Assembly: GCA_016184105.1 (NCBI GenBank)
Contig: JACPDI010000022.1
Span: 1 to 64,000 of the forward strand
Direction: 5' to 3'
Source: Acidobacteriota bacterium
GTDB taxonomy: Bacteria > Acidobacteriota > Vicinamibacteria > Vicinamibacterales > 2-12-FULL-66-21
Length of the DNA stretch: 64,000 nt
Positions 10,490-52,099 of the stretch are shown here, one piece after another. A model generated the notes under the pieces. The model made no database searches. It was not told the DNA's origin and was given only the letters and a program-made list of their open reading frames with translations. The position numbers and the translations under genes are program-made. Position 1 is the first letter of the stretch; the number at the start of each line of letters is the position of its first letter.

Positions 10490-11581
10490 TCAGTGCGTGC
10501 GCAGGAGGGTGACGAACAGAGGCGCGAGCGCCGCGTCGAACTGCGATCCCGCGCCGCGCTCGAGTTCCAGCAGGGCCTCGCTCGGGGGCAACGGATCGCG
10601 GTACGCGCGCGTGCCGATCATTGCGTCATAGGCGTTCGCGATCGCCACGATGCGCGCGCCGAGCGGGATCGCCTGGCCGGACAGTCCATAGGGAAAACCG
10701 CGGCCGTCCGGGCGCTCGTGCGCGCAGCGGACGAGTGCCGCCGCGTCGGCCAGGAAGGGAATCGCGCCGAGAAGACGGAACGCGCGCTCCGGGTGCGTGC
10801 GCACCAGCTCGTACTCTTCGCCGGTGAGCGGCGCGGGCTTGTCGAGGACGGCGGCCGGAATCGCGCTCTTGCCGACGTCGTGGAGCAGCGCCGCGCGGCG
10901 AATGACCACCTTTTCCGCGTCGGGGCGCCCGAGGTGATCGCAGAGCAGCACCGCCAGCGAGGCCACGCGCCGCGCGTGCGCGTACGCGGCCTCGTCGTGC
11001 CGTGTGAGCGTGGAGAGCAGCCTGTCGACCGCTTCATCGGTGTCGACCACCAGGCCCCGCATCGCCTCCATCAGGCGCTGTTCGAGCTCCAGCGATTCCC
11101 GTTCGAGCTGCGCCGCCCACTTCCGCTCGGTCGCCAGATTCAGATGCCAGTCCATCGCGCGGCGGACCGCGGCACCGAGTTGATCGGGCGTGAACGGCTT
11201 GGTGAGATAGTCCACGACGCCGCGGCGCAGGCTGACGACGGCCGGCGCGACTTCGTGCGAGGCGGTGGCCATGACCACGGCGGTATCCGGGAACTCGTCG
11301 CGCAGGCGGTCGAGCAGCCACAAACCGTCGCGCCCGGGCATCCGGATGTCGCACAGCGCGACGCCCGCGGGCTCTTCGGACATGCGGATGAGGGCCTCAT
11401 CGGCCGTCGCCGCCGTGCGCACGCGGTACCCGCGCGAGCGCAGCCAGCGCGACATCACCTCGCGGATCCCGTCTTCGTCGTCGACGATCAGGACCGGGTG
11501 AGGGCACTGGCGGCGAATCCATTCGGCGAGCAGGGCCGCGCCGGCGACCTGCGGGCGCGATTCGGTCGGTTCGATGGCCAT
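10490..11581 (-). CDS. Response regulator with HD-GYP phosphodiesterase domain
   Basis: About 363 residues from ATG 11581 (MAIEPTES). A receiver domain (about 28-145) has the acidic pair VDDED, phospho-acceptor Asp in CDIRMPGRDG and Lys in YLTKPF. A helical linker leads to an HD-GYP domain (about 195-360) with LLHDVGKSAIP and ERPDGRGFPYGL. HD-GYP domains usually hydrolyse cyclic di-GMP. The second motif departs from the consensus (AHE for HHE, GFP for GYP), so activity may be reduced or altered. It lies downstream of the sigma-54 activator gene on the same strand. Confidence 0.88.
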   Translation of the reverse strand: MAIEPTESRPQVAGAALLAEWIRRQCPHPVLIVDDEDGIREVMSRWLRSRGYRVRTAATADEALIRMSEEPAGVALCDIRMPGRDGLWLLDRLRDEFPDTAVVMATASHEVAPAVVSLRRGVVDYLTKPFTPDQLGAAVRRAMDWHLNLATERKWAAQLERESLELEQRLMEAMRGLVVDTDEAVDRLLSTLTRHDEAAYAHARRVASLAVLLCDHLGRPDAEKVVIRRAALLHDVGKSAIPAAVLDKPAPLTGEEYELVRTHPERAFRLLGAIPFLADAAALVRCAHERPDGRGFPYGLSGQAIPLGARIVAIANAYDAMIGTRAYRDPLPPSEALLELERGAGSQFDAALAPLFVTLLRTH

Positions 11582-11718
11582 GATGGCGAACAAGGTGGTG
11601 CGTGTGCAAACCGGCTGCCGCACGAGTGGCGCGGCTCCGAGGCCGTTTTCACGGCGTTTTTACGCGGGGGCTCCGTGCGCGAGCGCGCCCCGCTGAGCGG
11701 AGCGCGCACACGCGCGGA

Positions 11719-13167
<1,449 letters not shown>

Positions 13168-13342
13168 GCTCCACCCAATGGCAAGAGGTGGGCCGCCCAC
13201 GGGATGCCGCACCCGGCCGCTAAGTCGTTGGTTTGCGGTAGGTTGCAACCTCGCGATGCGGGACGACCGGTGTGCGCAAGCGTGCGCGCCTGTGCGGCGC
13301 ACACGCGTCGCGCCACGAAAAGCCGAGAATAGAAACATAACG

Positions 13343-37380: not shown

Positions 37381-37408
37381 CTGACCCCTGACCCCTGAAC
37401 CCTATTCA
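37381..37408. repeat. Heptamer array CTGACCC/CTGAACC
   Basis: CTGACCC, CTGACCC, CTGAACC and a diverged CTATTCA. Its reverse complement (GGGTCAG, GGTTCAG) belongs to the same unit family as the array at 34514. It spans the leader of the OsmC gene and the stop codon of the NapC-like cytochrome gene. Confidence 0.6.
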
Positions 37409-38772
37409 ATGGTGTGACAGGTCTCGCAATCCTGCTTGATGACCGACCCGTCCTGCGCCTTGTGGCTGTCGTCGTGGCAGCGGAAGCATCCCGGGAAATC
37501 CATGTGCCCGATGTTGTTCGGATACGTGCCCCACCCGACCTTCATCGACGGGAACACGTTGCGCCGATACAGCCCCTGGAGCGCATTGACGGCGCGCTCC
37601 ACGTCCTGGCGGCGCTGGGCGTACACGTCGGGGTACGTCGATCGGTAAAATGCCCGGACCTTCGACGCGATCGCATCGAAGGCCGCTTGCTGCGAGGAGT
37701 GCTCGGCTTTCAGGACCGCCACCCCCTCGCGTCGCACGAACGGAAGGTCGCGCGGAATCTCGTTGCTTCCGATGGCGCCGTCCACGGCGCGTTCTGCCGA
37801 CGGCGAAAACGGATGGCTGGGACGGTTGTGGCAGTCCACGCAGTCCATGAGCCGCAGCTCGTTCCTGTCCAGCTCCGCCTGCGTCACCCCCTCGCTCCGG
37901 TACTCCTTCACATTGCCGAAGCGGTCCGTGAACTTCACGTACGGAATCACCTGGCGTTTCTCGTCGGTCGCGATGTACTCGACCTTGTTCGCCAGGGCCA
38001 TGTGCCAGTGGATCCCGGAGACCTGGCCCAGGCCCGGATCCCCTCCGCCGACGTGCACGCGCAGCGTCGTCACGGTTTCAGAGTTCGTCTCGTCCGACGC
38101 GTATTCCCGGCTGACGCGCACGATGTCGCCGTGGAACTTCGCGGGCCAGTGACACTGCTCGCAGGTGTCCCGCGCCGGGCGCAGGTTGTGCACCGGCGAG
38201 GGAATCGGTCGCGAGAACGTGCTCAGCATCACCGCGAACACCTGCCGCGTGCCGGACAGCTTCGACCGGACGAACCACGGCGCGCCCGGCCCGATGTGGC
38301 AGTCGACGCAAACCACCCGGGCGTGCGGGCCGGCCTGGTTCGCCACGAACTCGGGCTCCATGACCTCGTGGCAGACCTTCCCGCAGAAGGTCACCGAGTC
38401 CATGAACTCGAGGCCGCGGTACGCCGCGAGCGACACGATCACGGCGTTGACGAGCGTCAGCAGCACGATGCCGAAGACGATCTCCCGCTGCCGCACGTCG
38501 TTCAGATCGACCCGGGGCCACTCGGCCGGCGGCTTCCCAGCCAGCCGCCGGCGGCGTTCGAGCCACGCGCCGAGCGGCATCAACAGCAGGCCGAAGATGA
38601 ACACCCCGGGGAGCAGCAGGAAAAACAGGATCCCCAGATAGGGGTTGCCATGCTCGCGGAACAGGTCCAGGACGAAGAACGCCAGAAACGCGAGCGCACC
38701 GATAGTGGCGAGGGCGGCGCCAATCGCGATCAGCGGGTGTCGCCCCTCCCAGAACTTGTAATTGATGGTCAT
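37402..38772 (-). CDS. NapC/NirT-family six-haem membrane cytochrome c
   Basis: 456 residues: three N-terminal membrane segments, then a periplasmic domain with five CxxCH sites (CVDCH, CEQCH, CVDCH, CFRCH, CETCH) and one CX3CH site (CGKVCH). Such proteins take electrons from menaquinol and pass them to periplasmic partners. The CX3CH first site is a known variant in this family. Its ATG overlaps the stop of the cytochrome b gene by one base, so cytochrome c, cytochrome b and the NapC-like protein form one operon. Confidence 0.9.
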   Translation of the reverse strand: MTINYKFWEGRHPLIAIGAALATIGALAFLAFFVLDLFREHGNPYLGILFFLLLPGVFIFGLLLMPLGAWLERRRRLAGKPPAEWPRVDLNDVRQREIVFGIVLLTLVNAVIVSLAAYRGLEFMDSVTFCGKVCHEVMEPEFVANQAGPHARVVCVDCHIGPGAPWFVRSKLSGTRQVFAVMLSTFSRPIPSPVHNLRPARDTCEQCHWPAKFHGDIVRVSREYASDETNSETVTTLRVHVGGGDPGLGQVSGIHWHMALANKVEYIATDEKRQVIPYVKFTDRFGNVKEYRSEGVTQAELDRNELRLMDCVDCHNRPSHPFSPSAERAVDGAIGSNEIPRDLPFVRREGVAVLKAEHSSQQAAFDAIASKVRAFYRSTYPDVYAQRRQDVERAVNALQGLYRRNVFPSMKVGWGTYPNNIGHMDFPGCFRCHDDSHKAQDGSVIKQDCETCHTIE

Positions 38773-39611
38773 CAGTTCAGGAAAGCGTAAATGATCATGA
38801 CGAAGAGGGAAAGCCCCACCGTCACCGCAACGGTACCGCCGAGGCGGCCCCAGCGCAGCAGGCGCGGGTTGGGCGGGGTTCCGATGAGGGCGTCAATGTG
38901 CACGCCGCGCGCCGCGAGCCGCGCCAGTTCCAGGGACCGCTCATGCCGGAACTCCTCCTCCGAGACGCGCCCCGTGAAGATGACGAGGTCCATCGGGAAC
39001 TTTTCCGGCCGCAGGTGGCCGTTGAAAAAGTGGATGGTGAAGATGAACCCGACGGCGAGCAGCGCCTCCTCGCCGTGCACCAGCATCGCGATGTTGAAGA
39101 TCCATCCCGGGACGAACCATGAGAACAGCTCCGGGAACCACAGCATCAGCCCGGAGCCGCCGATGATGAACATCCCCCAGAACACCGCCCAGTAGTCGAA
39201 CTTCTCCCAGTAGGTGAACCGATCGAACTCGGGGCGCGGGCCGACGCGAAGGAACCACTTCACGTGCTGGTACAGCTCGATCAGATCTCTCGGCTGCGGG
39301 CTCATCGAGGCGGGCCCCCACAGCATGCCGCGCTCCTTCTTCACGAAGATGCGATACGCGAGCCAGCCCACGTGAAACACGAACACGCCGATGAGCGCCA
39401 GCGCGAAGAACCGGTGCAACAGGCCGGCGAACACGAACCCGCCGAGAAGGCGCGCGAGCACGCCGGCCCAGGCCTCGCCGCTGAACAGCAGCGGCAGCCC
39501 GGTCGCCGCCAGCGCCAGAAAACTGGTCATCAGGATGCCGTGCTGGACCCGCTCCGCCCTGCCGAAGCGGACGATGTAGCGGGGCTCGGTCGCCGCGCGC
39601 GTCTCAGTCAC
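38772..39611 (-). CDS. Membrane cytochrome b (formate dehydrogenase gamma/b561 type)
   Basis: 279 residues with five or so membrane segments. Likely haem-ligand histidines are in ERVQHGILM, LHRFFALALIGVFVFHVGW and VHGEEALLAVGFIFTIHFF. The GHLRPEKFPMD motif after the last pair is common in di-haem quinone-reactive subunits. It probably moves electrons between menaquinone and the 11-haem cytochrome encoded just upstream. Confidence 0.87.
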   Translation of the reverse strand: MTETRAATEPRYIVRFGRAERVQHGILMTSFLALAATGLPLLFSGEAWAGVLARLLGGFVFAGLLHRFFALALIGVFVFHVGWLAYRIFVKKERGMLWGPASMSPQPRDLIELYQHVKWFLRVGPRPEFDRFTYWEKFDYWAVFWGMFIIGGSGLMLWFPELFSWFVPGWIFNIAMLVHGEEALLAVGFIFTIHFFNGHLRPEKFPMDLVIFTGRVSEEEFRHERSLELARLAARGVHIDALIGTPPNPRLLRWGRLGGTVAVTVGLSLFVMIIYAFLN

Positions 39612-40902
39612 CGGTCACCTCCCTCTTGCGGGGCGCCGGCTTCTCCACGGCCCGCAGCGCCGGGTGCTTGGCCGGCGGCGGCACGTGGGGGACCCGCGCG
39701 GTGCGGCCGCGCGAGAACCACAGCATCGTGTGAACCCCGAAGAACCCGAAGACGAACACGAGCAACCCCTCCATGAACCGCGCGGAGTAATACAGCAGCG
39801 GCAGGCGGGACTTGTCGTGCTTGTTCGCGTGCGGGTTGTATGCGACGAAATTGGCCGTCGCACCCTCGTGGCACTGCCCGCAGGTCTTGATCAGGTTCGC
39901 CTCGGCGACCGCCGACCGCCCGTCCTGCCTCGGCAGCACTTCGTGCGCGCCGTGGCAGTCCACGCACTTGGCAACCGGCGTGAAGCCGAGCGCCGTGACC
40001 TGGCCGTGGAACGTGTCCCGGTACGTCTTCAACGACTCCTTGTGGCAGGTGCCGCACTGCTCCACCGCGTGCAGCTGCCAGTCATCCGTGTCCGTCCGGG
40101 CGATGCCATGCGCCGAGTGGCAGGAGGCGCAGTTCGGTGCCGACAGGTTGCCGCCGGCCAGCTTCGCGCCATGGATGCCTCCGGCAAACTCGTGGCGGAT
40201 GCCTTCGTGGCACTTGCCGCACGTGACCGGCACGTTTCTCGGGGACACCGGGCTGTCCGGCAGGCGCTTCGGGACGATCGCGTGGTTGCCGTGGCAGTCG
40301 CTGCACGTGGGTGCGACGACGAGCCCTTTCTTCGCGAGCGCCTGGCCGTGAATGCTGTCGTGGAACAGCGCGGCGACGGCGCCATTCCGCCCGCCCGAGA
40401 GGTTGACGGGCGCCTTGTTCCCGTGGCATTTCGCGCACGTCCGCGCCACCTTCAGCTTGTTGGTGGCCGATTCGGGGTCGCTCGACGGCAGGATCCCGTG
40501 CGCGCTCCCGCCATGGCAGTCCACGCACGTGGCGGCCCGGCTGTTCGGATCCTTGTGCCGGGCGTCTGCGTGGATGCCGTGCTCGTACTGCTCCACGGAC
40601 TGCTCGTGGCAGGTCGCGCACTTCACCTTCGCCAGTTTGTCGGGATGGGGGAACTCGACGCCTGCCGCGAGATCGCTGTGGCAGTCCACGCAGCTCAAGG
40701 GACCGTGCGCCGACTTCGCGAACCGCTCGGTGTCCACCACAACCGGCGCGCCGTTCGCGCGGGTTGCGGACGGGTCGCCATGACAGGCCTGGCAATCCTC
40801 GTTGGCAGGGACCGGCAGCTTCGGCGCCGGGGTCTGCGCGAGCGCGGGCACCGCGGCCAGCAGCAGCGCGCTCATGCACCACGCGGCTATTCGACCTCGC
40901 AC
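39604..40902 (-). CDS. Exported undecahaem cytochrome c with a C-terminal membrane anchor
   Basis: About 432 residues from GTG 40902 (MRGRIAAWCMSALLLAAVPA signal peptide). An in-frame start at 40971 is less likely. I count eleven CxxCH motifs from CQACH to CGQCH, with matching distal His residues (GIHA, SIHG, FHGQ). One membrane segment lies near the C-terminus (FMEGLLVFVFGFFGVHTMLW). It resembles the multihaem subunits of quinone/cytochrome complexes that pass electrons to the periplasm or cell surface. The end overlaps the cytochrome b start by eight bases. Confidence 0.9.
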   Translation of the reverse strand: MRGRIAAWCMSALLLAAVPALAQTPAPKLPVPANEDCQACHGDPSATRANGAPVVVDTERFAKSAHGPLSCVDCHSDLAAGVEFPHPDKLAKVKCATCHEQSVEQYEHGIHADARHKDPNSRAATCVDCHGGSAHGILPSSDPESATNKLKVARTCAKCHGNKAPVNLSGGRNGAVAALFHDSIHGQALAKKGLVVAPTCSDCHGNHAIVPKRLPDSPVSPRNVPVTCGKCHEGIRHEFAGGIHGAKLAGGNLSAPNCASCHSAHGIARTDTDDWQLHAVEQCGTCHKESLKTYRDTFHGQVTALGFTPVAKCVDCHGAHEVLPRQDGRSAVAEANLIKTCGQCHEGATANFVAYNPHANKHDKSRLPLLYYSARFMEGLLVFVFGFFGVHTMLWFSRGRTARVPHVPPPAKHPALRAVEKPAPRKREVTGD

Positions 40903-41009
40903 GCCCGCAGCTCCATGAGATCCTTTCACCTCGCGGTCACACACTATGCCGGCACGGGGCTCGCGCCCCACACCACCTTCGTCATCTCTCCTCCAAGAGA
41001 ATGGATGGC

Positions 41010-41342
41010 TCAGCAGATCTCGCGCACGCCGAACAGCCGCGCGAGCACGGGCGCGAACCGCTCGCCCTCGGATCCCTCGAGGCGCTCGGTCGTGCGCGCG
41101 GCCATGCCGCGCACGACTTCGAGCGTCACGGCGTCCACGGTGGCCCGGGCGGACGGCTCCAGGCTCGCCGTCTTCTTCTTCAGGCGCGCCAGTTCTGCGC
41201 GAGAGACTTCCTCGAATCGGCTCTGGATGGCGCGTTTCAGGGGGCTCACGCCGGCCGAAGTCGCAAAGCGAGTGCCAGTGAAATATTCAGCGATTTTCGG
41301 CCGGCGAGCCGCCAGTTGACGAGCGACCGTCAACGTTCTCAA
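41010..41342 (-). CDS. Stand-alone helical domain resembling the dimerisation domain of glutamyl-tRNA reductase
   Basis: 110 residues at most. Only TTG starts are available and the 5' end overlaps the radical SAM gene. The segment RAELARLKKKTASLEPSARATVDA and the following VVRGMAARTTERLEG look like the C-terminal helices of HemA (RAELxRALxxLxxLxPxExxxVxxLTxxxVNKL). No catalytic or NADPH domain is present. It lies between the radical SAM and multihaem genes, so a link to haem supply is possible but unproven. Confidence 0.45.
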   Translation of the reverse strand: MRTLTVARQLAARRPKIAEYFTGTRFATSAGVSPLKRAIQSRFEEVSRAELARLKKKTASLEPSARATVDAVTLEVVRGMAARTTERLEGSEGERFAPVLARLFGVREIC

Positions 41343-42588
41343 CAGGGCCGGCGGGTGGGATGACGGATTTCCGGCGACCGCGTCCGGGCCGCATCTTCAT
41401 CGCGAACACGGGGCGCGCGGCGATCTTCACCGCCCGCCGCCAGAACTCGTAGCGGTAGAACGCCCCACTACGTGGCGCGATCAACGCGGCATCATCCGGG
41501 TTGACGACGAGGCTGACCTCGATGTTGGGTGCCGCGCCGATCGGCAGTCGGTGCCGGCGGCACGCGTCATAGACCGCGCTCATCACGACGCGCATGTCGT
41601 CATAGCGCGGCGGTGGCCAGCCCTCCATGTCCGACCCGATCGTCGGCCGGAAGATGCACACGGTCGGGAACGCGCCGCGCGAGGTAATTTCCTCGATCGC
41701 CCGCAGCGTGCTCTCGATCGGCTCGAGACCGGCGATGATTTCCCCGGAGACGGCGCCCCGCGGCATCCGCGCGGCGCAGTACTCCAGCGCCTGCATGAAC
41801 AGCGGCTGCCCCAGCATGCGGTCCTTGCCCGGGCAGATGTCGGCAAACCATTTCGGATCCAGGAACTCGAGACAGAACGACAAGTGGTCGACGCCGGCAT
41901 CCAGCAGGCGATCGTACTGCTCGAACCGTTTCTCGGGTGCGAGCTGCACGCCGACCAACAGTCCGACCTGGTCCTTGATGCGCCGGACGTACGGTTCGGT
42001 GAACGCAATCCCGCGCGACCCCTGATAGCCGCCGTTCAAGTGCGCGAAGGTGACGCCGCTCTCCTCCTTCGCCGCCCAGCAGGTCTCGATCACGTCTTCG
42101 ATCGCCTTGTCCGGTTCCTCGCTCCGGCCGACGTTGCGTCCGGTCGTGCAGAACTTGCAGTTCAGCGCCGGCTTGTAGTTCCAGAAGGCGCAGACCGGAT
42201 TCACGTAGATGGCAAGGTAGGTCCCCTGCATCACGGCGATGCGGTTCATCGGCACGTCGCGCGAGGTGACGGCCGAGTACCACTGCGGCTCGCGCGGCAC
42301 GCCAATCACGTACACCGCGCGATCGCGCTCGTCCACGATGCGGTACCCGTTCGCCGGATCCCCGGCGAGCACGTACGGGGAATCTTCCACGAACTTCTCG
42401 ACGACCGGGACGTTCGCCCAGATCTGCCGTTTCAACCACGCCGGCGCCGGGATCGTGATCTCGAGACCGGAGCCGAGCCCCGCGCGCGTGCGCTGGAGTC
42501 CGCGGGCCCCTTCCAGACTCACGCCGTCAGGCACCCGGAGTCCGCGGCACAACAGATCGATCTCGAGTTCGCAGGCGTTCAACGGCAT
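41287..42588 (-). CDS. Radical SAM protein with atypical CX10CX2C motif
   Basis: About 433 residues from ATG 42588 (MPLNACELEIDLL). The probable cluster-binding segment (about 133-147) is VCAFWNYKPALNCKFCTTGRN. The cysteines are spaced C-x10-C-x2-C, where the standard radical SAM loop is C-x3-C-x2-C. The barrel that follows is typical: THLNGG-like FAHLNGGYQGSRG, LLVGVQLAPEKRF, LSFCLEFLDPKWF and SGEIIAGLEPIEST. Product unknown. It sits between the NO reductase and the cytochrome operon. Confidence 0.75.
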   Translation of the reverse strand: MPLNACELEIDLLCRGLRVPDGVSLEGARGLQRTRAGLGSGLEITIPAPAWLKRQIWANVPVVEKFVEDSPYVLAGDPANGYRIVDERDRAVYVIGVPREPQWYSAVTSRDVPMNRIAVMQGTYLAIYVNPVCAFWNYKPALNCKFCTTGRNVGRSEEPDKAIEDVIETCWAAKEESGVTFAHLNGGYQGSRGIAFTEPYVRRIKDQVGLLVGVQLAPEKRFEQYDRLLDAGVDHLSFCLEFLDPKWFADICPGKDRMLGQPLFMQALEYCAARMPRGAVSGEIIAGLEPIESTLRAIEEITSRGAFPTVCIFRPTIGSDMEGWPPPRYDDMRVVMSAVYDACRRHRLPIGAAPNIEVSLVVNPDDAALIAPRSGAFYRYEFWRRAVKIAARPVFAMKMRPGRGRRKSVIPPAGPVENVDGRSSTGGSPAENR

Positions 42589-42795
42589 CGGCCGCCCTGA
42601 CGCAATCGCCGCGCCGCGCCTGCCCCCCTGAAAACACTGGGCAATCGTGGCCCCATGCGCGCCGCTGCCGGATTTCCGGCAGAGCCGGACATGGCCCGAG
42701 AACCCGCGGCAGCAGGGAGGCAAGTTGCGGAGGCGCAAAGACGCGCGGCCCGCCCGGGACCTACGCTTGGCCATTCATCTGGAGGACACGTCTTC

Positions 42796-45081
42796 ATGCG
42801 CAAGTACTGGACTGGCTTCATCCTCGTGGTCGTTCTCTCGTTCGGAGTCCTCGGCTGGGTCGGCACGCGCATTTACCAGTCGATGCCACCGGTGCCGGTT
42901 CGCGTGGTGGCCAGCGACGGCGCCACGGTCGTGCCCGACGGCGACATCGCCGCGGGGCAGAACGTGTGGCAGTCGATGGGCGGGATGGAACTCGGGTCGA
43001 TCTGGGGCCACGGGAGTTACGTCGCGCCGGACTGGACGGCGGACTGGCTGCATCGTGAAAGCCTGCTCATCCTCGACGACTGGAGCGCCGCCGGGCACGC
43101 GCGCCCGTACGCGGACCTGCTGCCGGAACAACAGGCCGCGCTGCGCGAACGGCTCGAGCGGGTGATGCGGCAGAACACGTTCGACGCCGGTACCGGCACG
43201 CTGGTGCTGGACCCGGCGCGCGGACGCGCGTTCGCGGCCAACGCGGCGCACTACGCGGATGTGTTCGGCTCGGGACGCGCGGAATACGCCATCCCGCGCG
43301 ACACCCTGACCGACCCGCGGCGCGCGCGGCAGCTCGCCGCGTTCATCTTCTGGACCTCGTGGGCCGCGTCGACCAACCGCCCGAACGAACGCGTGAGCTA
43401 CACCAGCAACTGGCCGCACGAGCCGCTGGTGGGCAACCGGCCGACGGGTGACACCGTCGTCTGGACGGGCGTGAGCATCATCATGCTGCTCGCCGGGATC
43501 GGCGTCATGGCGTCCTGGTACGCCACCCGGCGCGAAGAGGCGCCCGGCCCGATGCCGCTGTACGATCCGCTCCTCGGCAGCCGCGCGACGCCCGCCCAGC
43601 GTGCCGTCGTGAAGTACTTCTGGACCGTGAGCGGGCTGCTGCTGCTGCAGATGGCGATGGGCATCATCGCCGCGCACTACGGCGTCGAAGGCGATGCGTT
43701 CTACGGCGTGCCGATCTCGTCCTTCCTTCCCTACAGCGTCGCGCGCACGTGGCACGTGCAGCTCGGGATCTTCTGGATCGCCACGGCGTGGCTCGCCGCG
43801 GGCCTCTACATCGCCTCCGCGGTCGGCTCGCGCGACCAGGATCCTCCCTTCCAGCGGCTCGGCACGAACGTGCTGTTCGGCGCGCTGGTCGTCGTCGTGC
43901 TCGGGTCGATGGCCGGCCAGTGGCTCAGCATCCGGCAGCAGCTCGGCATCGGCGACGCGTGGTTTTATTTCGGGCACAGCGGATACGAGTACATCGACCT
44001 GGGCCGGGCATGGCAGATCGCGCTGCTCGTCGGGCTGTTGCTGTGGCTGTTTCTGATGGTGCGGGCGCTCCTGCCGGCGCTGCGCAAGACGGGCACCGAA
44101 TCGCCGGAGCAGGCCGAGCAGCGACCCATCCTCTTTCTGTTTCTCATCTCGACCATCGCCATCGCGTCGTTCTATGCGGCGGCGTTCGGCGCCGGTCGTC
44201 ACACGAACCTCGCGATGGCCGAGTACTGGCGGTGGTGGGTCGTGCACCTGTGGGTGGAAGGGTTCTTCGAGGTGTTCGCGACCGTCGTGATCGCGTTTCT
44301 GTTCGCGCGGCTGCGGCTCGTGTCGCTGAAGCTCGCGGGCGAAGCCAGCCTGCTCTCGGCGACGATCTTCCTGTCGGGCGGGATCATCGGCACGCTGCAC
44401 CACCTGTACTTCACGGGCACGCCGACCCTCGCGCTGGCGTTCGGCTCGGTCTTCAGCGCGCTCGAGGTGGTGCCGTTGCTCTTTGTCGGCTACGAGGCGT
44501 GGGAGAACCTGAAGCTCTCGCGCGCGACGGCGTGGGCGCGGAAGTACCGCTGGCCGATCTATTTCTTCGTGTCCGTGGCGTTCTGGAACCTGGTTGGCGC
44601 CGGGCTGTTCGGGTTCATGATCAACCCGCCCATCGCGCTGTATTACATGCAGGGGCTGAACACCACGCCGGTGCACGGCCACGCCGCGCTTTTCGGGGTG
44701 TACGGCATGCTCGGCCTGGGGCTGATGCTGTTCTCGCTGCGCGCCATGCGGCCCGAGGTGGTCTGGAAGGAGAGGCTGCTGTCGTTCGGCTTCTGGGCGA
44801 CCAACGTGGGCCTGTTCGCGATGGTGGTCCTCAGCCTTCTTCCCGTCGGGCTGATGCAGACCTGGGCGTCGGTCGAAGTCGGCTACTGGTACGCGCGCAG
44901 CCCGGAGTTCCTGCAGGGCGGCGCCATCAACGCGTTCCGCTGGCTCCGCATCGTCGGCGACACGATCTTCGCCGCCGGCATCGTCTCGCTCGTGCTGTTC
45001 ATGTTCGGCCTGAGCTCCGGACACACGGTCCGGGCCGCGGAGGCGGCGGGCGCCGCACTTCCCGAGCGAACCCCCGCGTAA
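42796..45081 (+). CDS. norZ: Quinol-dependent nitric oxide reductase (single chain)
   Basis: 761 residues from ATG 42796. An N-terminal membrane helix and periplasmic domain (NVWQSMGGMELGSIWGHGSY) replace the NorC subunit. The C-terminal part is a haem-copper-oxidase-like subunit with about 12 helices and histidines in RTWHVQLGIFWIATAW, VVHLWVEGFFEVFATV, GTLHHLYFTGTP and TPVHGHAALFGVYG. It reduces 2 NO to N2O with electrons from quinol. No nitrite or nitrous oxide reductase is present, so detoxification or partial denitrification is likely. Confidence 0.93.
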   Translation: MRKYWTGFILVVVLSFGVLGWVGTRIYQSMPPVPVRVVASDGATVVPDGDIAAGQNVWQSMGGMELGSIWGHGSYVAPDWTADWLHRESLLILDDWSAAGHARPYADLLPEQQAALRERLERVMRQNTFDAGTGTLVLDPARGRAFAANAAHYADVFGSGRAEYAIPRDTLTDPRRARQLAAFIFWTSWAASTNRPNERVSYTSNWPHEPLVGNRPTGDTVVWTGVSIIMLLAGIGVMASWYATRREEAPGPMPLYDPLLGSRATPAQRAVVKYFWTVSGLLLLQMAMGIIAAHYGVEGDAFYGVPISSFLPYSVARTWHVQLGIFWIATAWLAAGLYIASAVGSRDQDPPFQRLGTNVLFGALVVVVLGSMAGQWLSIRQQLGIGDAWFYFGHSGYEYIDLGRAWQIALLVGLLLWLFLMVRALLPALRKTGTESPEQAEQRPILFLFLISTIAIASFYAAAFGAGRHTNLAMAEYWRWWVVHLWVEGFFEVFATVVIAFLFARLRLVSLKLAGEASLLSATIFLSGGIIGTLHHLYFTGTPTLALAFGSVFSALEVVPLLFVGYEAWENLKLSRATAWARKYRWPIYFFVSVAFWNLVGAGLFGFMINPPIALYYMQGLNTTPVHGHAALFGVYGMLGLGLMLFSLRAMRPEVVWKERLLSFGFWATNVGLFAMVVLSLLPVGLMQTWASVEVGYWYARSPEFLQGGAINAFRWLRIVGDTIFAAGIVSLVLFMFGLSSGHTVRAAEAAGAALPERTPA

Positions 45082-48177: not shown

Positions 48178-48499
48178 CAGAAATTGAAGGGGTGGAGCCC
48201 GCTCGAATCACCGTCTGCGTTCATGCTGTCGTGGGGGGAGCGGCCGATACGGAGATTTTGCCTGCCCGAAACGGGACTGTCACTCGGATTCTGAGCTTCG
48301 CCTTCCTCTTCGGATGCGCTGACGGCGACAATCCAGCATCCGGCCTGAGGCGCCCGGACCCACCTGACGGTAATTCGGCACCTTCCCTGAACGGCCGTCT
48401 CGACACCGGCCAAATCGCTGATTTCAGGGGCATTTCCGCGCCCTGCCGCGTGGGCACGGCCGTTGCCTCGTGACCGGTGTTTCCAGGAGGAATTTGTCT
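48178..48499 (+). other. Intergenic region with regulatory signals for nifJ and the sensor kinase
   Basis: A 322-base gap between divergent genes. Besides the sigma-54 site and ribosome binding site listed separately, I see no gene. GCCTGCCCGAAACGGGACTG near 48261-48280 contains a short palindrome (CCCGAAACGGG), and the following CGGGACTGTCAC is shared with the palindrome at 45095. Confidence 0.5.
48452..48467 (+). promoter_or_regulatory. Sigma-54 (-24/-12) promoter upstream of the pyruvate oxidoreductase gene
   Basis: GGGCACGGCCGTTGCC matches the sigma-54 consensus TGGCACG-N4-TTGC(A/T). GG at 48453-48454 and GC at 48465-48466 are exactly ten bases apart. A transcript starting about 12 bases downstream would have a leader of roughly 22 bases containing AGGAGGAA at 48486-48493, then the ATG at 48500. 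Confidence 0.6.
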
Positions 48500-51400
48500 A
48501 TGACGCGCCCGTGGCTGACCCTCGACGGCAACGAAGCGACCGCGAGAGTCGCCTACCAGCTCAGCGAAGTGATCGCGATCTACCCCATCACGCCCTCGTC
48601 CAACATGGGCGAGTGGGCCGATCAGTGGGCTTCCGAGCACCGGCCGAACTTGTGGGGGACGCCTCCCACGGTCGTCGAGATGCAGAGCGAAGGGGGCGCG
48701 GCGGGCGCCTGCCACGGCGCGATGCAGGCCGGCGCGCTCGCGACGACGTTCACGGCGAGCCAGGGCCTCCTCCTGATGATCCCGAACATGTTCAAGATCG
48801 CCGGCGAGCTGACGCCGGCGGTGTTCCACGTGTCGGCACGCGCGGTTGCAACGCACGCGATCTCGATCTTCGGGGATCACTCCGACGTGATGTCGGTGCG
48901 CACCACCGGGTGGGCGCTCCTCGCCTCCAATTCCGTGCAGGAGGCCCAGGACATGGCGGCCATCGCGCACGCCTCGACGCTCGAGACCCGCGTGCCCGTG
49001 CTGCACTTTTTCGACGGGTTCCGCACGTCGCACGAAGTCGCCAAGATCCAGGCGCTGACCAGCGAGGAGCTGCACGACCTCATCCCCGACGGGTTGATTG
49101 AAGCGCACCGCACGCGCGCGCTCTCGCCCGACAGGCCGGTGCTCCGCGGCTCGGCGCAGAACCCGGACGTGTTCTTCCAGGCCCGCGAAGCCGCGACGCC
49201 GTACTATCTCGCCGGCCCCGCGCTCGTGCAGCGCGTCATGGACCGATTCGCCACGATCACCGGCCGCAAGTACCGCATCTTCGAGTACTACGGCGCGCCG
49301 GACGCGGACCGCGTCATTGTCGCGATGGGCTCGGCTGCGGGCGCGATCGACGAAGCGGTGGACAAGCTCAATCGGTCCGGTGAGAAGGTCGGCGTGCTGA
49401 AGATCCGCCTGTTCCGCCCGTTCAGCGCCGTGCACTTCATGCGCGCGCTCCCCGCCACCGTGCGCGGGATCGCGGTCCTCGATCGCACGAAGGAACCAGG
49501 CGCGGCCGGCGAGCCGCTATACCAGGACGTCCTGACCGCGATCGCCGAGCAGGGCTCCCTGCTGCAGCCGGCGGAGCGCCCCACGGTCATCGGCGGCCGC
49601 TACGGTCTGGGCTCCAAGGAATTCACGCCCGCCATGGCCAAGGCCGTGTTCGACGAGCTGAAGCGCCCGGCGCCGCGCAACCACTTCACCGCCGGCATCG
49701 TCGACGACGTGTCGTTCTCGAGCCTTGATCATGACGAGGAGTTCTCGACCGAGCACCCCGACACTGTGCGCGCCGTGCTGTACGGGCTCGGCTCCGACGG
49801 CACCGTAGGCGCGAACAAGAACACGATCAAGATCATCGGCGAATCGACCGAGCAGTACGCCCAGGGGTACTTCGTCTACGACTCGAAGAAGTCCGGATCG
49901 ACGACGATTTCGCACCTGCGCTTCGGCCCGCATCCGATCCGATCGACGTATCTCGTGTCGCGCGCCGGATTCATCGGGTGTCACCAGTGGGAGCTGCTCG
50001 AGCGGATGGACGTGCTCGAAGCCGCGACGCCTGGCAGCACGCTGCTGCTCAACAGCCCGTATCCGGCCGGCGAGGTCTGGGGGAAGCTGCCGGGACGGAT
50101 CCAGCGCGTCATCGCGGACCTCAAGATGAAGGTGTACACGATTGACGCGACCGCGGTGGCCAACGCCACAGGAATGGGCAAGCGCGTCAACACGATCCTG
50201 CAGACGTGCTTCTTCGCGCTTTCAGGCGTGCTGCCCAAAGACGACGCGATCGCCGCCATCAAGAAGGCGGTGCAGAAGACCTACGGCGCCAAGGGAGAGA
50301 ACGTCGTCCAGCAGAACTTCAACGCGATCGACCAGGCACTCGCCCACCTGCACGAGGTGGCCGTGCCCGCCACCTTCGATCTGAACCTCGAGAACGGGAC
50401 GGCGCCGTGGGACGAGGCCCCGGAGTTCGTGCGCAACGTCCTCGCACCGATGATCATCGGCAAGGGGGACCGGCTGCCGGTCAGCGCGATGCCGATCGAC
50501 GGCACGTTCCCGGTCGGCACGGCCAGGTGGGAGAAGCGGAATCTCGCGGACCAGATCCCGGCATGGACCGAGCCGATCTGCATCCAGTGCGGCAAGTGCG
50601 CCCTCGTGTGCCCGCACGCGGCCATCCGCATCAAGGCATACCCGCCGGCGCTGCTCGCCGGCGCGCCCGCGACGTTCAAATCGATGGACTACAAGGGCGC
50701 GGAGTACGCCGGGCAGAAGTACACCATCCAGGTGGCGCCTGAGGACTGCACGGGCTGCGAATTGTGCGCCGAGGTCTGCCCCGCCGCCGACAAGAAGACC
50801 GGGCAGCGCGCCCTCGAGATGAAGCCGCAGCGCGACCTGCGCGCGGCTGAGAGCGCGAACTGGAATTTCTTCCTCGGGCTGCCCGAAGTCGATCGCGTCA
50901 CCGCGAAGAAGACCACCGTCAAGGGCTCGCAGTTCCTCGAGCCGCTGTTCGAGTTCTCGGGCGCGTGCTCCGGCTGCGGCGAGACGCCGTACGTCAAGCT
51001 GGCGACCCAGCTGTTCGGCGATCGGATGGTCGTCGCCAATGCGACCGGCTGCTCGTCGATCTACGGCGGCAACCTGCCGACCACTCCGTGGACGACGGAT
51101 GCCTGCGGGCGGGGGCCCGCGTGGTCGAACTCGCTCTTCGAGGACAACGCCGAATTCGGCTTTGGCATGCGGCTGACCATCGACCAGCTCGCCGAGGAAG
51201 CGCGCGCCCTGCTCGCGCGGCTCCGCGCGGTGGCCGGCGAGGGGCTCGCCGCCGCGATCCTCGACGCCGTGCAGGCCGACGAGCAGGCGATCAGCGAGCA
51301 GCGCGAGCGGATTGTGGCGCTGAAGCGGATGCTGGAATGGTCGCTGAAACGCCGGCCGCGCGGAGAGACGGCGGACGCCGAGCGCCGGCTGCTCTCGCTG

Positions 51401-52099
51401 GCGGACTACCTCGTGCGCAAGTCGGTGTGGATCATCGGCGGCGACGGCTGGGCGTACGACATCGGGTACGGCGGGCTGGACCACGTCCTCGCGTCCGGGC
51501 GTGACGTCAACGTGCTCGTGCTCGACACCGAGGTGTACTCCAACACCGGCGGGCAGATGTCGAAGGCGACGCCCCGCGCGGCGGTGGCGAAGTTTGCGGC
51601 CGGCGGCAAGCCGCTCGCGAAGAAGGACCTCGGCCTGATCGCGATGACCTACGGCAACATCTACGTCGCGTCGGTGGCCATGGGCGCCAACGACGCGCAG
51701 ACCGTCAAGGCGTTCATGGAGGCGGAGTCCTACAACGGCCCCTCGCTCATCATCTCCTACGGGCACTGCATCGCCCACGGGATCGACATCAGCAAGGGGC
51801 TCAAGCAGCAGGCGAACGCGGTGGCGTGCGGTCACTGGCCGCTGTACCGCTTCGATCCGCGGCTGGCGGCACACGGCAAGAACCCGCTGTCGCTCGACTC
51901 GAAGCCGCCGAAGATCTCGTTCATCGATTACGCGTACCAGGAAACGCGGTACCGGATGCTCGCGTCGGCCGACAAGAAGGCTGCGCAGACGCTCGCCGAG
52001 CTCGCGCAGCAGGACGTGACGCTGCGGTGGAAGATGTACGAGCAGCTTGCGAAGCTGTACGAGACGACCGCCACGGGGGCGGCTGCCGTGAAGGCGTGA
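48500..52099 (+). CDS. nifJ: Pyruvate:ferredoxin (flavodoxin) oxidoreductase, single chain
   Basis: 1199 residues from ATG 48500, behind AGGAGGAA. It oxidises pyruvate with CoA to acetyl-CoA and CO2, reducing ferredoxin. Domains in order: alpha (AIYPITPSSNMGEWADQW), gamma (SGSTTISHLRFGPHPIRS), a two-[4Fe-4S] insert near residues 690-770 (CIQCGKCALVCPHAAIR and CTGCELCAEVCP), and the TPP-binding beta part with CSGCGETPYVKL and GDGWAYDIGYGG. This is an oxygen-sensitive enzyme of fermentation or reductive metabolism. It stands next to the hyp operon. Confidence 0.95.
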   Translation: MTRPWLTLDGNEATARVAYQLSEVIAIYPITPSSNMGEWADQWASEHRPNLWGTPPTVVEMQSEGGAAGACHGAMQAGALATTFTASQGLLLMIPNMFKIAGELTPAVFHVSARAVATHAISIFGDHSDVMSVRTTGWALLASNSVQEAQDMAAIAHASTLETRVPVLHFFDGFRTSHEVAKIQALTSEELHDLIPDGLIEAHRTRALSPDRPVLRGSAQNPDVFFQAREAATPYYLAGPALVQRVMDRFATITGRKYRIFEYYGAPDADRVIVAMGSAAGAIDEAVDKLNRSGEKVGVLKIRLFRPFSAVHFMRALPATVRGIAVLDRTKEPGAAGEPLYQDVLTAIAEQGSLLQPAERPTVIGGRYGLGSKEFTPAMAKAVFDELKRPAPRNHFTAGIVDDVSFSSLDHDEEFSTEHPDTVRAVLYGLGSDGTVGANKNTIKIIGESTEQYAQGYFVYDSKKSGSTTISHLRFGPHPIRSTYLVSRAGFIGCHQWELLERMDVLEAATPGSTLLLNSPYPAGEVWGKLPGRIQRVIADLKMKVYTIDATAVANATGMGKRVNTILQTCFFALSGVLPKDDAIAAIKKAVQKTYGAKGENVVQQNFNAIDQALAHLHEVAVPATFDLNLENGTAPWDEAPEFVRNVLAPMIIGKGDRLPVSAMPIDGTFPVGTARWEKRNLADQIPAWTEPICIQCGKCALVCPHAAIRIKAYPPALLAGAPATFKSMDYKGAEYAGQKYTIQVAPEDCTGCELCAEVCPAADKKTGQRALEMKPQRDLRAAESANWNFFLGLPEVDRVTAKKTTVKGSQFLEPLFEFSGACSGCGETPYVKLATQLFGDRMVVANATGCSSIYGGNLPTTPWTTDACGRGPAWSNSLFEDNAEFGFGMRLTIDQLAEEARALLARLRAVAGEGLAAAILDAVQADEQAISEQRERIVALKRMLEWSLKRRPRGETADAERRLLSLADYLVRKSVWIIGGDGWAYDIGYGGLDHVLASGRDVNVLVLDTEVYSNTGGQMSKATPRAAVAKFAAGGKPLAKKDLGLIAMTYGNIYVASVAMGANDAQTVKAFMEAESYNGPSLIISYGHCIAHGIDISKGLKQQANAVACGHWPLYRFDPRLAAHGKNPLSLDSKPPKISFIDYAYQETRYRMLASADKKAAQTLAELAQQDVTLRWKMYEQLAKLYETTATGAAAVKA

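Follow-up and report, generated by a model that had tools for sequence, protein, structure and literature searches.

The window, a 64,000-nucleotide stretch of Acidobacteriota DNA, encodes on its minus strand a 433 amino acid protein, P0001, which is probably a genuine radical SAM enzyme with its cluster on C133, C144 and C147, an enlarged spacer loop between the first two of these cysteines, a radical that abstracts hydrogen, and an auxiliary site or thiol provided by C239 and C311. It is an uncharacterised member of a variant class that has already been catalogued. Within its clade the first loop of the radical SAM motif varies from 8 to 14 residues while both ends stay fixed, and because of this variation between fixed ends searches with the CX3CX2C motif miss such enzymes; Pfam model PF04055, applied at its cut-off, likewise misses P0001. 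For experimental work the clade offers a pair of cysteines in the barrel, as well as a partner protein that is adjacent to the enzyme or fused with it in other lineages.

The gene and its homologs

The gene starts with the ATG at 42588 and its stop codon occupies 41289-41287 (Table 1). The mechanically called ORF extends to 42774; the homologs begin at the ATG at 42588 instead. The source genome is a 4.24-Mb draft in 69 contigs, 96% complete, and the nearest named relatives of P0001 are Acidobacteriota, one of them a Vicinamibacterales MAG. A first scan of genome contigs with P0001 as single-protein query gave no match, and neither did a PHROGs search.

Two sets of homologs were compared. The first consists of the best 80 of 207 relatives in genome contigs, aligned with the window protein in 81 rows, and was found with search patterns containing C239 or C311. 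The second comprises 30 loci from a profile search of the phylum which were not chosen by motif; the window is one of these loci, the alignment has 31 rows (the 30 loci and P0001), and some genomes are common to both sets. Flanks are incomplete at some of the 80 loci, so that all neighbor counts given below are lower bounds. Among 396 sampled genomes of the phylum 99 matched the family; the 79 with a best E below 1e-100 are termed strong carriers (three, G108, G360 and G389, being partial) and the other 20 are weak.

Table 1. Coordinates, strand and supporting evidence of the features discussed
Feature	Position in window	Strand	Evidence or remark
Radical SAM protein P0001, 433 aa, NF045502 variant_rSAM	41287..42588	-	ORF, profile, homologs, model
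C14 codon, N-terminal helix	42547..42549	-	invariant in both alignments
Cluster loop C133-x10-C144-x2-C147	42148..42192	-	both alignments
C133 codon	42190-42192	-	part of cluster loop
W136 codon, invariant tryptophan of enlarged loop	42181..42183	-	both alignments
C144 codon	42157-42159	-	part of cluster loop
C147 codon	42148-42150	-	part of cluster loop
C239 codon, barrel strand 235-241	41872..41874	-	invariant in both alignments
C311 codon, barrel strand 307-312	41656..41658	-	invariant in both alignments
GlutR_dimer-like small ORF, 110 aa as listed, TTG start	41010..41342	-	overlaps P0001 gene end, directly downstream
Multihaem c-type cytochrome	39604..40971	-	neighbor set common to close relatives
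Cytochrome b561-type membrane protein	38772..39611	-	same neighbor set
NrfH/NapC-like multihaem cytochrome	37402..38772	-	same neighbor set
Quinol-type NO reductase, divergent neighbor	42796..45081	+	ORF opens at 42655; ATG 42796 chosen

The cluster loop

P0001 has 11 cysteines (6, 14, 133, 144, 147, 170, 239, 252, 271, 311 and 343), and its cluster loop reads VC133-AFWNYKPALN-C144-KF-C147-TTG. The first-pass annotation had described a radical SAM protein with C-x10-C-x2-C in place of CX3CX2C; inspection of the whole protein confirmed both the motif, at the positions in Table 1, and the absence of CX3CX2C. C133, C144, C147 and W136 are identical in 81/81 aligned proteins (the window and the best 80 of 207) and in all 31 rows of the profile-selected set. 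Every row of both alignments has the three conserved cysteines after strand 1, the last two as CX2C. Since the three cysteines are invariant in both sets, their earlier assignment to the cluster stands.

Ten residues between C133 and C144 is merely the commonest loop length, since others also occur. The spacing is x10 in 75, x8 in three, x9 in one and x14 in one of the best 80 of 207 relatives; in the 30 profile-selected loci the counts are 21 for x10, seven for x11 and one each for x8 and x9. The canonical x3 was found in neither set, and a cysteine four residues before the second one, the canonical place of the first ligand, occurs in none of the 80 and none of the 30 loci. Two observations had been named as able to overturn the assignment: that another cysteine takes the place of C133, which was not seen, and that the spacing is not conserved, which turned out to be the case, with a range of 8 to 14. 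Of the flanking residues, C-x-[FY]-W and [TSA]-[TSV]-G-x-N are constrained; NYKP, which had been thought so, varies among members. P0001 is filed in the radical SAM superfamily as a variant because the superfamily accepts other spacings. The parts of PMC4389238 consulted give the first loop of QueE as CX14CX2C, with a beta6/alpha3 core, and that of HmdB as CX5CX2C; the QueE loop is set beside that of P0001 here by description only. A frameshift artefact as the source of the enlarged loop is ruled out, because the entire reading frame is conserved across phyla.

The conservation makes C133 much the strongest candidate for the role of first ligand and supports a loop that is truly enlarged. The cluster might conceivably sit on C144 and C147 together with C14, C239 or C311, C133 being otherwise employed, since these three cysteines are as invariant as C133. 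We find this scarcely credible: C133 closely follows strand 124-128 and precedes C144 and C147, which is the order of a radical SAM loop, and NitD (see below) keeps the equivalent of C133 and is without C239 and C311. With C133 as first ligand, the three cysteines would bind three irons of one [4Fe-4S] cluster, and the first loop would be enlarged by about 7 residues, with W136 probably packing on the cluster or on SAM. Because 8 to 14 residues are tolerated, the loop is read as a spacer with two fixed ends, and would not be a new kind of cluster site.

Predicted fold

Structure prediction, which had been proposed as a check, gave a radical SAM barrel with LipA, HydE, BioB and MqnE as its nearest structures. 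The model, based on 81 sequences, has a pLDDT of 91.3 and a pTM of 0.89. Up to about residue 118 the chain consists of a helix and a part rich in beta structure, and the barrel follows with strands at 124-128, 181-185, 211-215, 235-241, 280-286 and 307-312. Among the VIA-align matches listed, LipA has a Z of 18.4 (rmsd 3.4 A, 236 residues aligned), followed by HydE (17.1), HydG (16.9), BioB (16.8), MqnE (16.5) and PylB (16.4), where values within one Z unit count as tied and a family missing from the list is not thereby excluded. Foldseek matched MqnE, ThiH, HydE and BioB with E values of 3e-7 to 2e-5. The predicted barrel fold is that of known radical SAM enzymes and would be of the BioB/LipS/MqnE-like type; a model of this kind indicates the superfamily, not the reaction. 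The group of MqnE, ThiH, HydE and PylB is among the best Foldseek matches, but the identity to P0001 is only 13-18% (Foldseek). Its members have the canonical cysteine spacing.

Family placement and long-loop relatives

Profile searches placed P0001 in NF045502 ('variant_rSAM'), whose cut-off of 125 it exceeds with 180.5 bits (181 when the genome was searched), and this profile matches 81/81 aligned members at E<=0.001. Three more distant long-loop relatives score 190.7-193.7 bits, also above the cut-off, and two CX3CX2C relatives fall below it at 102.4 and 109.1 bits. Judging by its name and these scores, NF045502 appears to hold the long-loop class as a variant. The long-loop motif is not new, since NCBIfam already catalogues the class; NF045502 is, however, a broad 'domain' model without a function, to which the P0001 clade adds the invariant C14, C239, C311 and W136. 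No reaction is assigned to the clade by the profile libraries searched. With Pfam Radical_SAM (PF04055) P0001 scores 24.0 bits, and 26.1 in the genome search, against a gathering score of 29.5, and the alignment starts at model position 9, past the first cysteine.

Twelve weaker relatives were fetched from the phylum, of which the 11 that match the family profile were read. L179, a NitD-type protein, has a C-x9-C loop, L180 and six proteins of a CQYFG type have C-x8-C, and the loop is C-x3-C in L183, L185 and L187. C-x9-C also stands at the same place in the alignment in two NitD proteins that are encoded on plasmids within annotated nitrilase clusters. In a tree of 36 proteins the P0001 family, NitD and the x8 group each lie on one side of a branch; the deep joins have low support and the branches are long, and the tree does not separate a common origin of the long loop from other histories.

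Among these relatives NitD (MSMEG_0568, TIGR04043, of the Nit1C cluster) resembles P0001 in its x9 first loop at the same place, the aromatic residue at C+3 and an identity of 28-29%. Perhaps P0001 then acts, like NitD, in the metabolism of nitriles or cyanide, and its 99.5 bits with TIGR04043 would fit this. We hold it to be highly improbable. The TIGR04043 cut-off is 303.7, and is passed by none of the 149 phylum genomes searched; NitD lacks C239 and C311, has another gene context, and ends in a CxxCxxC which is present in L162, L163 and L179 and absent in P0001; and the annotated part of the window shows no gene set of the Nit1C type. As a member of NitD proper P0001 is ruled out by score and by the missing C-terminal motif. 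The reaction of NitD is itself not established in what was consulted of PMC1199592 and PMC10138600. A true NitD (465.7 bits) is encoded in G416 of the phylum, which is also a strong carrier of the radical SAM family.

In CC-licensed PMC literature 'radical SAM' was not found paired with MSMEG_0568 or with CX10CX2C, and the portions searched for the motifs from CX8CX2C to CX11CX2C and for NF045502 gave no radical SAM use. The CX8CX2C in the excerpt of PMC6205161 belongs to anamorsin, the accessible text of PMC4918011 is without the term 'radical SAM', and COG2516 leads, within this literature, to PMC1199592.

Invariant residues of the barrel and the question of sulfur insertion

C14 is identical in all 80 rows of the first alignment that have a letter there (one row is truncated). 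Because the search patterns behind this set contained C239 or C311, the invariance of these two was recounted on the profile-selected set, where C14, C239 and C311 are identical in 31/31 rows. In the 81-row set the invariant residues alternate along the predicted strands (F181-H183-N185, G213-Q215, H235-S237-C239-E241 and T309-C311-F313) and, going by this alternation only, would face the barrel interior. C239 and C311 are near strand ends, which makes them candidates for an auxiliary site or a catalytic thiol. H183 and H235 change jointly to D183 and R235 in 14/31 rows of the profile-selected set, along with T148 to S, which points to a paired site by which two subgroups can be told apart.

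For the preferred reading, that of a genuine radical SAM enzyme with a spacer loop, we propose that SAM would bind the fourth iron and be cleaved to a 5'-deoxyadenosyl radical. The radical would abstract hydrogen from a small substrate, for whose binding inside the barrel H183, N185, Q215, H235, S237, E241 and R314 are among the likely residues. C239 and C311, with C14, could ligate a second Fe-S cluster serving as donor of sulfur or electrons; alternatively, C239 and C311 might supply a hydrogen-donating thiol. Against this reading, NitD lacks both C239 and C311, and their positions are not those known for the auxiliary ligands of BioB.

If the second cluster were sacrificial, P0001 would be a sulfur-inserting enzyme like LipS1/LipS2, LipA and BioB, its auxiliary cluster held by C14, C239 and C311 and perhaps R314. 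This we regard as possible but rather doubtful. P0001 shares with these enzymes the barrel (LipA and BioB at Z 16-18), weak profile matches and extra conserved cysteines: LipA heads the structural list, three extra cysteines are invariant, and the LipS2 profile, although far from its cut-off of 270, gives 23.4 bits on P0001 and matches 25/81 members at E<=0.001. A precedent exists in LipS1/LipS2, where according to the portion of PMC9585515 consulted auxiliary [Fe4S4] clusters are bound by cysteines that do not belong to CX3CX2C. The same text gives them CX3CX2C, however, the LipA of the window's genome has this motif too, and P0001 is far below the cut-offs of these families. Nor do the extra cysteines of P0001 include the C-terminal CxxCxxC of NitD.

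The distribution of lipoate and biotin genes also speaks against replacement of either classical enzyme. The window's genome has a LipA over the cut-off (387.5 bits), and because this classical enzyme is present it needs no replacement by P0001, for which no LipA match was listed; a role as LipA substitute is accordingly unlikely. Among the 79 strong carriers (of 396 genomes) 10 have BioB and nine a BioD match, all nine of them with BioB as well, so that BioD without BioB occurs in none. Conversely, five genomes have a BioD match and no BioB (one of them over the BioD cut-off), and none of these is a strong carrier. Since this distribution lacks the pattern of a BioB replacement, P0001 is unlikely to stand in for BioB. 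All this evidence leaves room for sulfur insertion into another molecule.

As a side observation, no BioB of the window's genome passes the cut-off and BioD gave no match there at E<=1e-12, so that the genome is possibly that of a biotin auxotroph.

Small partner proteins in other lineages

A family of ~130 amino acid proteins (A4) is encoded directly beside the radical SAM gene in 24 of the best 80 of 207 loci. Its conserved domain begins 65-192 bp past the last codon of the gene in 22 loci, ends 23 bp before the gene in L049, and in L050 (4999-6714) is fused in frame to the radical SAM C-terminus, being a separate gene elsewhere. Scans of four members each against Pfam (at E<=0.1) and NCBIfam (at its cut-offs) gave no match. 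The A4 model has a pLDDT of 94; its best structural match is DR_1245 (Z 5.8), and Foldseek returned no match at E<=0.001. In the phylum A4 was found in 12/396 genomes, 10 of which are strong radical SAM carriers as compared with 79/396 overall (Fisher one-sided p 2.9e-6, a nominal value because the genomes are related). Seven of the 12 (G069, G084, G132, G171, G192, G248 and G329) have both genes side by side on the same contig; in the five genomes with A4 apart from the radical SAM gene, the surroundings of A4 gave no lead. The query that finds these 12 genomes did not find A4 in the window's genome, and A4 therefore cannot explain the window gene.

Among the 18 loci nearest to that of the window (L032-L048 and L051), 13 encode an ~80 amino acid protein (protein A) downstream of the gene, for example at L033:11367-11606 and L038:2817-3059. 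It has a conserved cysteine pair (QCGEICYLA-like) and no Pfam match. Ungapped pairs of ten protein A genes differ at 1072 first, 803 second and 1688 third codon positions, a distribution in keeping with a coding gene. The window itself gave no match, and the one from its genome, at 12.7 bits, was not accepted.

Gene neighborhood

The gene had been noted as lying beside genes for NO reductase and multihaem cytochromes. The first association is not a family trait: a homolog of the window's NO reductase occurs near the gene in only 1/80 loci (L091), and we reject the link as a property of the family. Between the two genes a perfect palindrome, TTGCG-N4-CGCAA, occupies 42725-42738, ~57 bp before the NO reductase start, and resembles an NO-regulator site. 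With one mismatch allowed the window contains 3 matches against 4.2 expected. Similar palindromes precede the gene in 3/79 upstream regions, the window included, where base shuffles give an expectation of 1.4. Shared NO regulation was rejected, since with one mismatch allowed the palindrome is not above chance.

The cytochromes do stand beside the gene, but homologs of the multihaem cytochrome and of the cytochrome b561-type protein occur in just 9/80 loci each (best 80 of 207), mainly in close relatives. In eight of these (L033, L034, L035, L038, L045, L046, L047 and L051) the set is downstream on the same strand; in the ninth, L101, the homologs are upstream and less alike. NrfH-like homologs are found in the same eight loci and in L032. 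Taken together with its neighbors, which lend it slight support, the cellular role of P0001 is probably in anaerobic or respiratory metabolism.

It is tempting to see P0001 as a maturation or modification enzyme for the downstream respiratory chain, acting for example on quinone or haem. The set follows the gene on the same strand in the window and in the eight loci, a further locus has just the NrfH-like gene, and multihaem genes lie upstream in L101. In L059, from a different lineage, the gene overlaps by ~30 bp that of a 700 amino acid membrane multihaem protein with a cytochrome c554-type domain (11196-13295). We nevertheless judge this role unlikely. An ORF with at least three CxxCH lies within 8 kb at only 10/80 loci (a filter that overlooked the cytochrome genes at L046, as well as the first such genes at L035 and L045), and the eight loci are close relatives with the same gene order, some having short flanks.

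More broadly, the clade, which spans Acidobacteriota, Planctomycetota and allied phyla, might combine the enlarged loop with a second metal or thiol site in the barrel (C239, C311 and C14), and serve in the synthesis or repair of a cofactor for anaerobic respiration with the help of small lineage-specific partners, either the adjacent or fused protein of ~130 amino acids or the cysteine-bearing one of ~80. We advance this as speculation that is unlikely to be right in full; if true, it would mean a radical reaction so far unknown and a new arrangement of the auxiliary site. No neighbor constant across the family was found in the loci surveyed, and for this reason no pathway is fixed.

Other genes were noted near the radical SAM gene. 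A pyruvate:ferredoxin oxidoreductase-like gene lies at 48470-52099 of the window, and 10/80 loci have a match, including one fragment and one weak match. The GlutR_dimer-like domain in the window stands alone, outside any glutamyl-tRNA reductase ORF, and has been kept in some close relatives; relatives of this ORF are found downstream, at up to 2.4 kb, in six of the best 80 of 207 loci. A second small protein, of ~70 amino acids (WTCRWSEFRP... CxxC) and without a Pfam match, is encoded between the gene and the cytochromes of some relatives, as at L032:11610-11981 and L033:11920-12243. Finally, at L081, L087, L098 and L104 the 10 kb around the radical SAM gene contain genes related to one another, whose representative looks like an enoyl-CoA hydratase and perhaps belongs to the anaerobic degradation of aromatic compounds.
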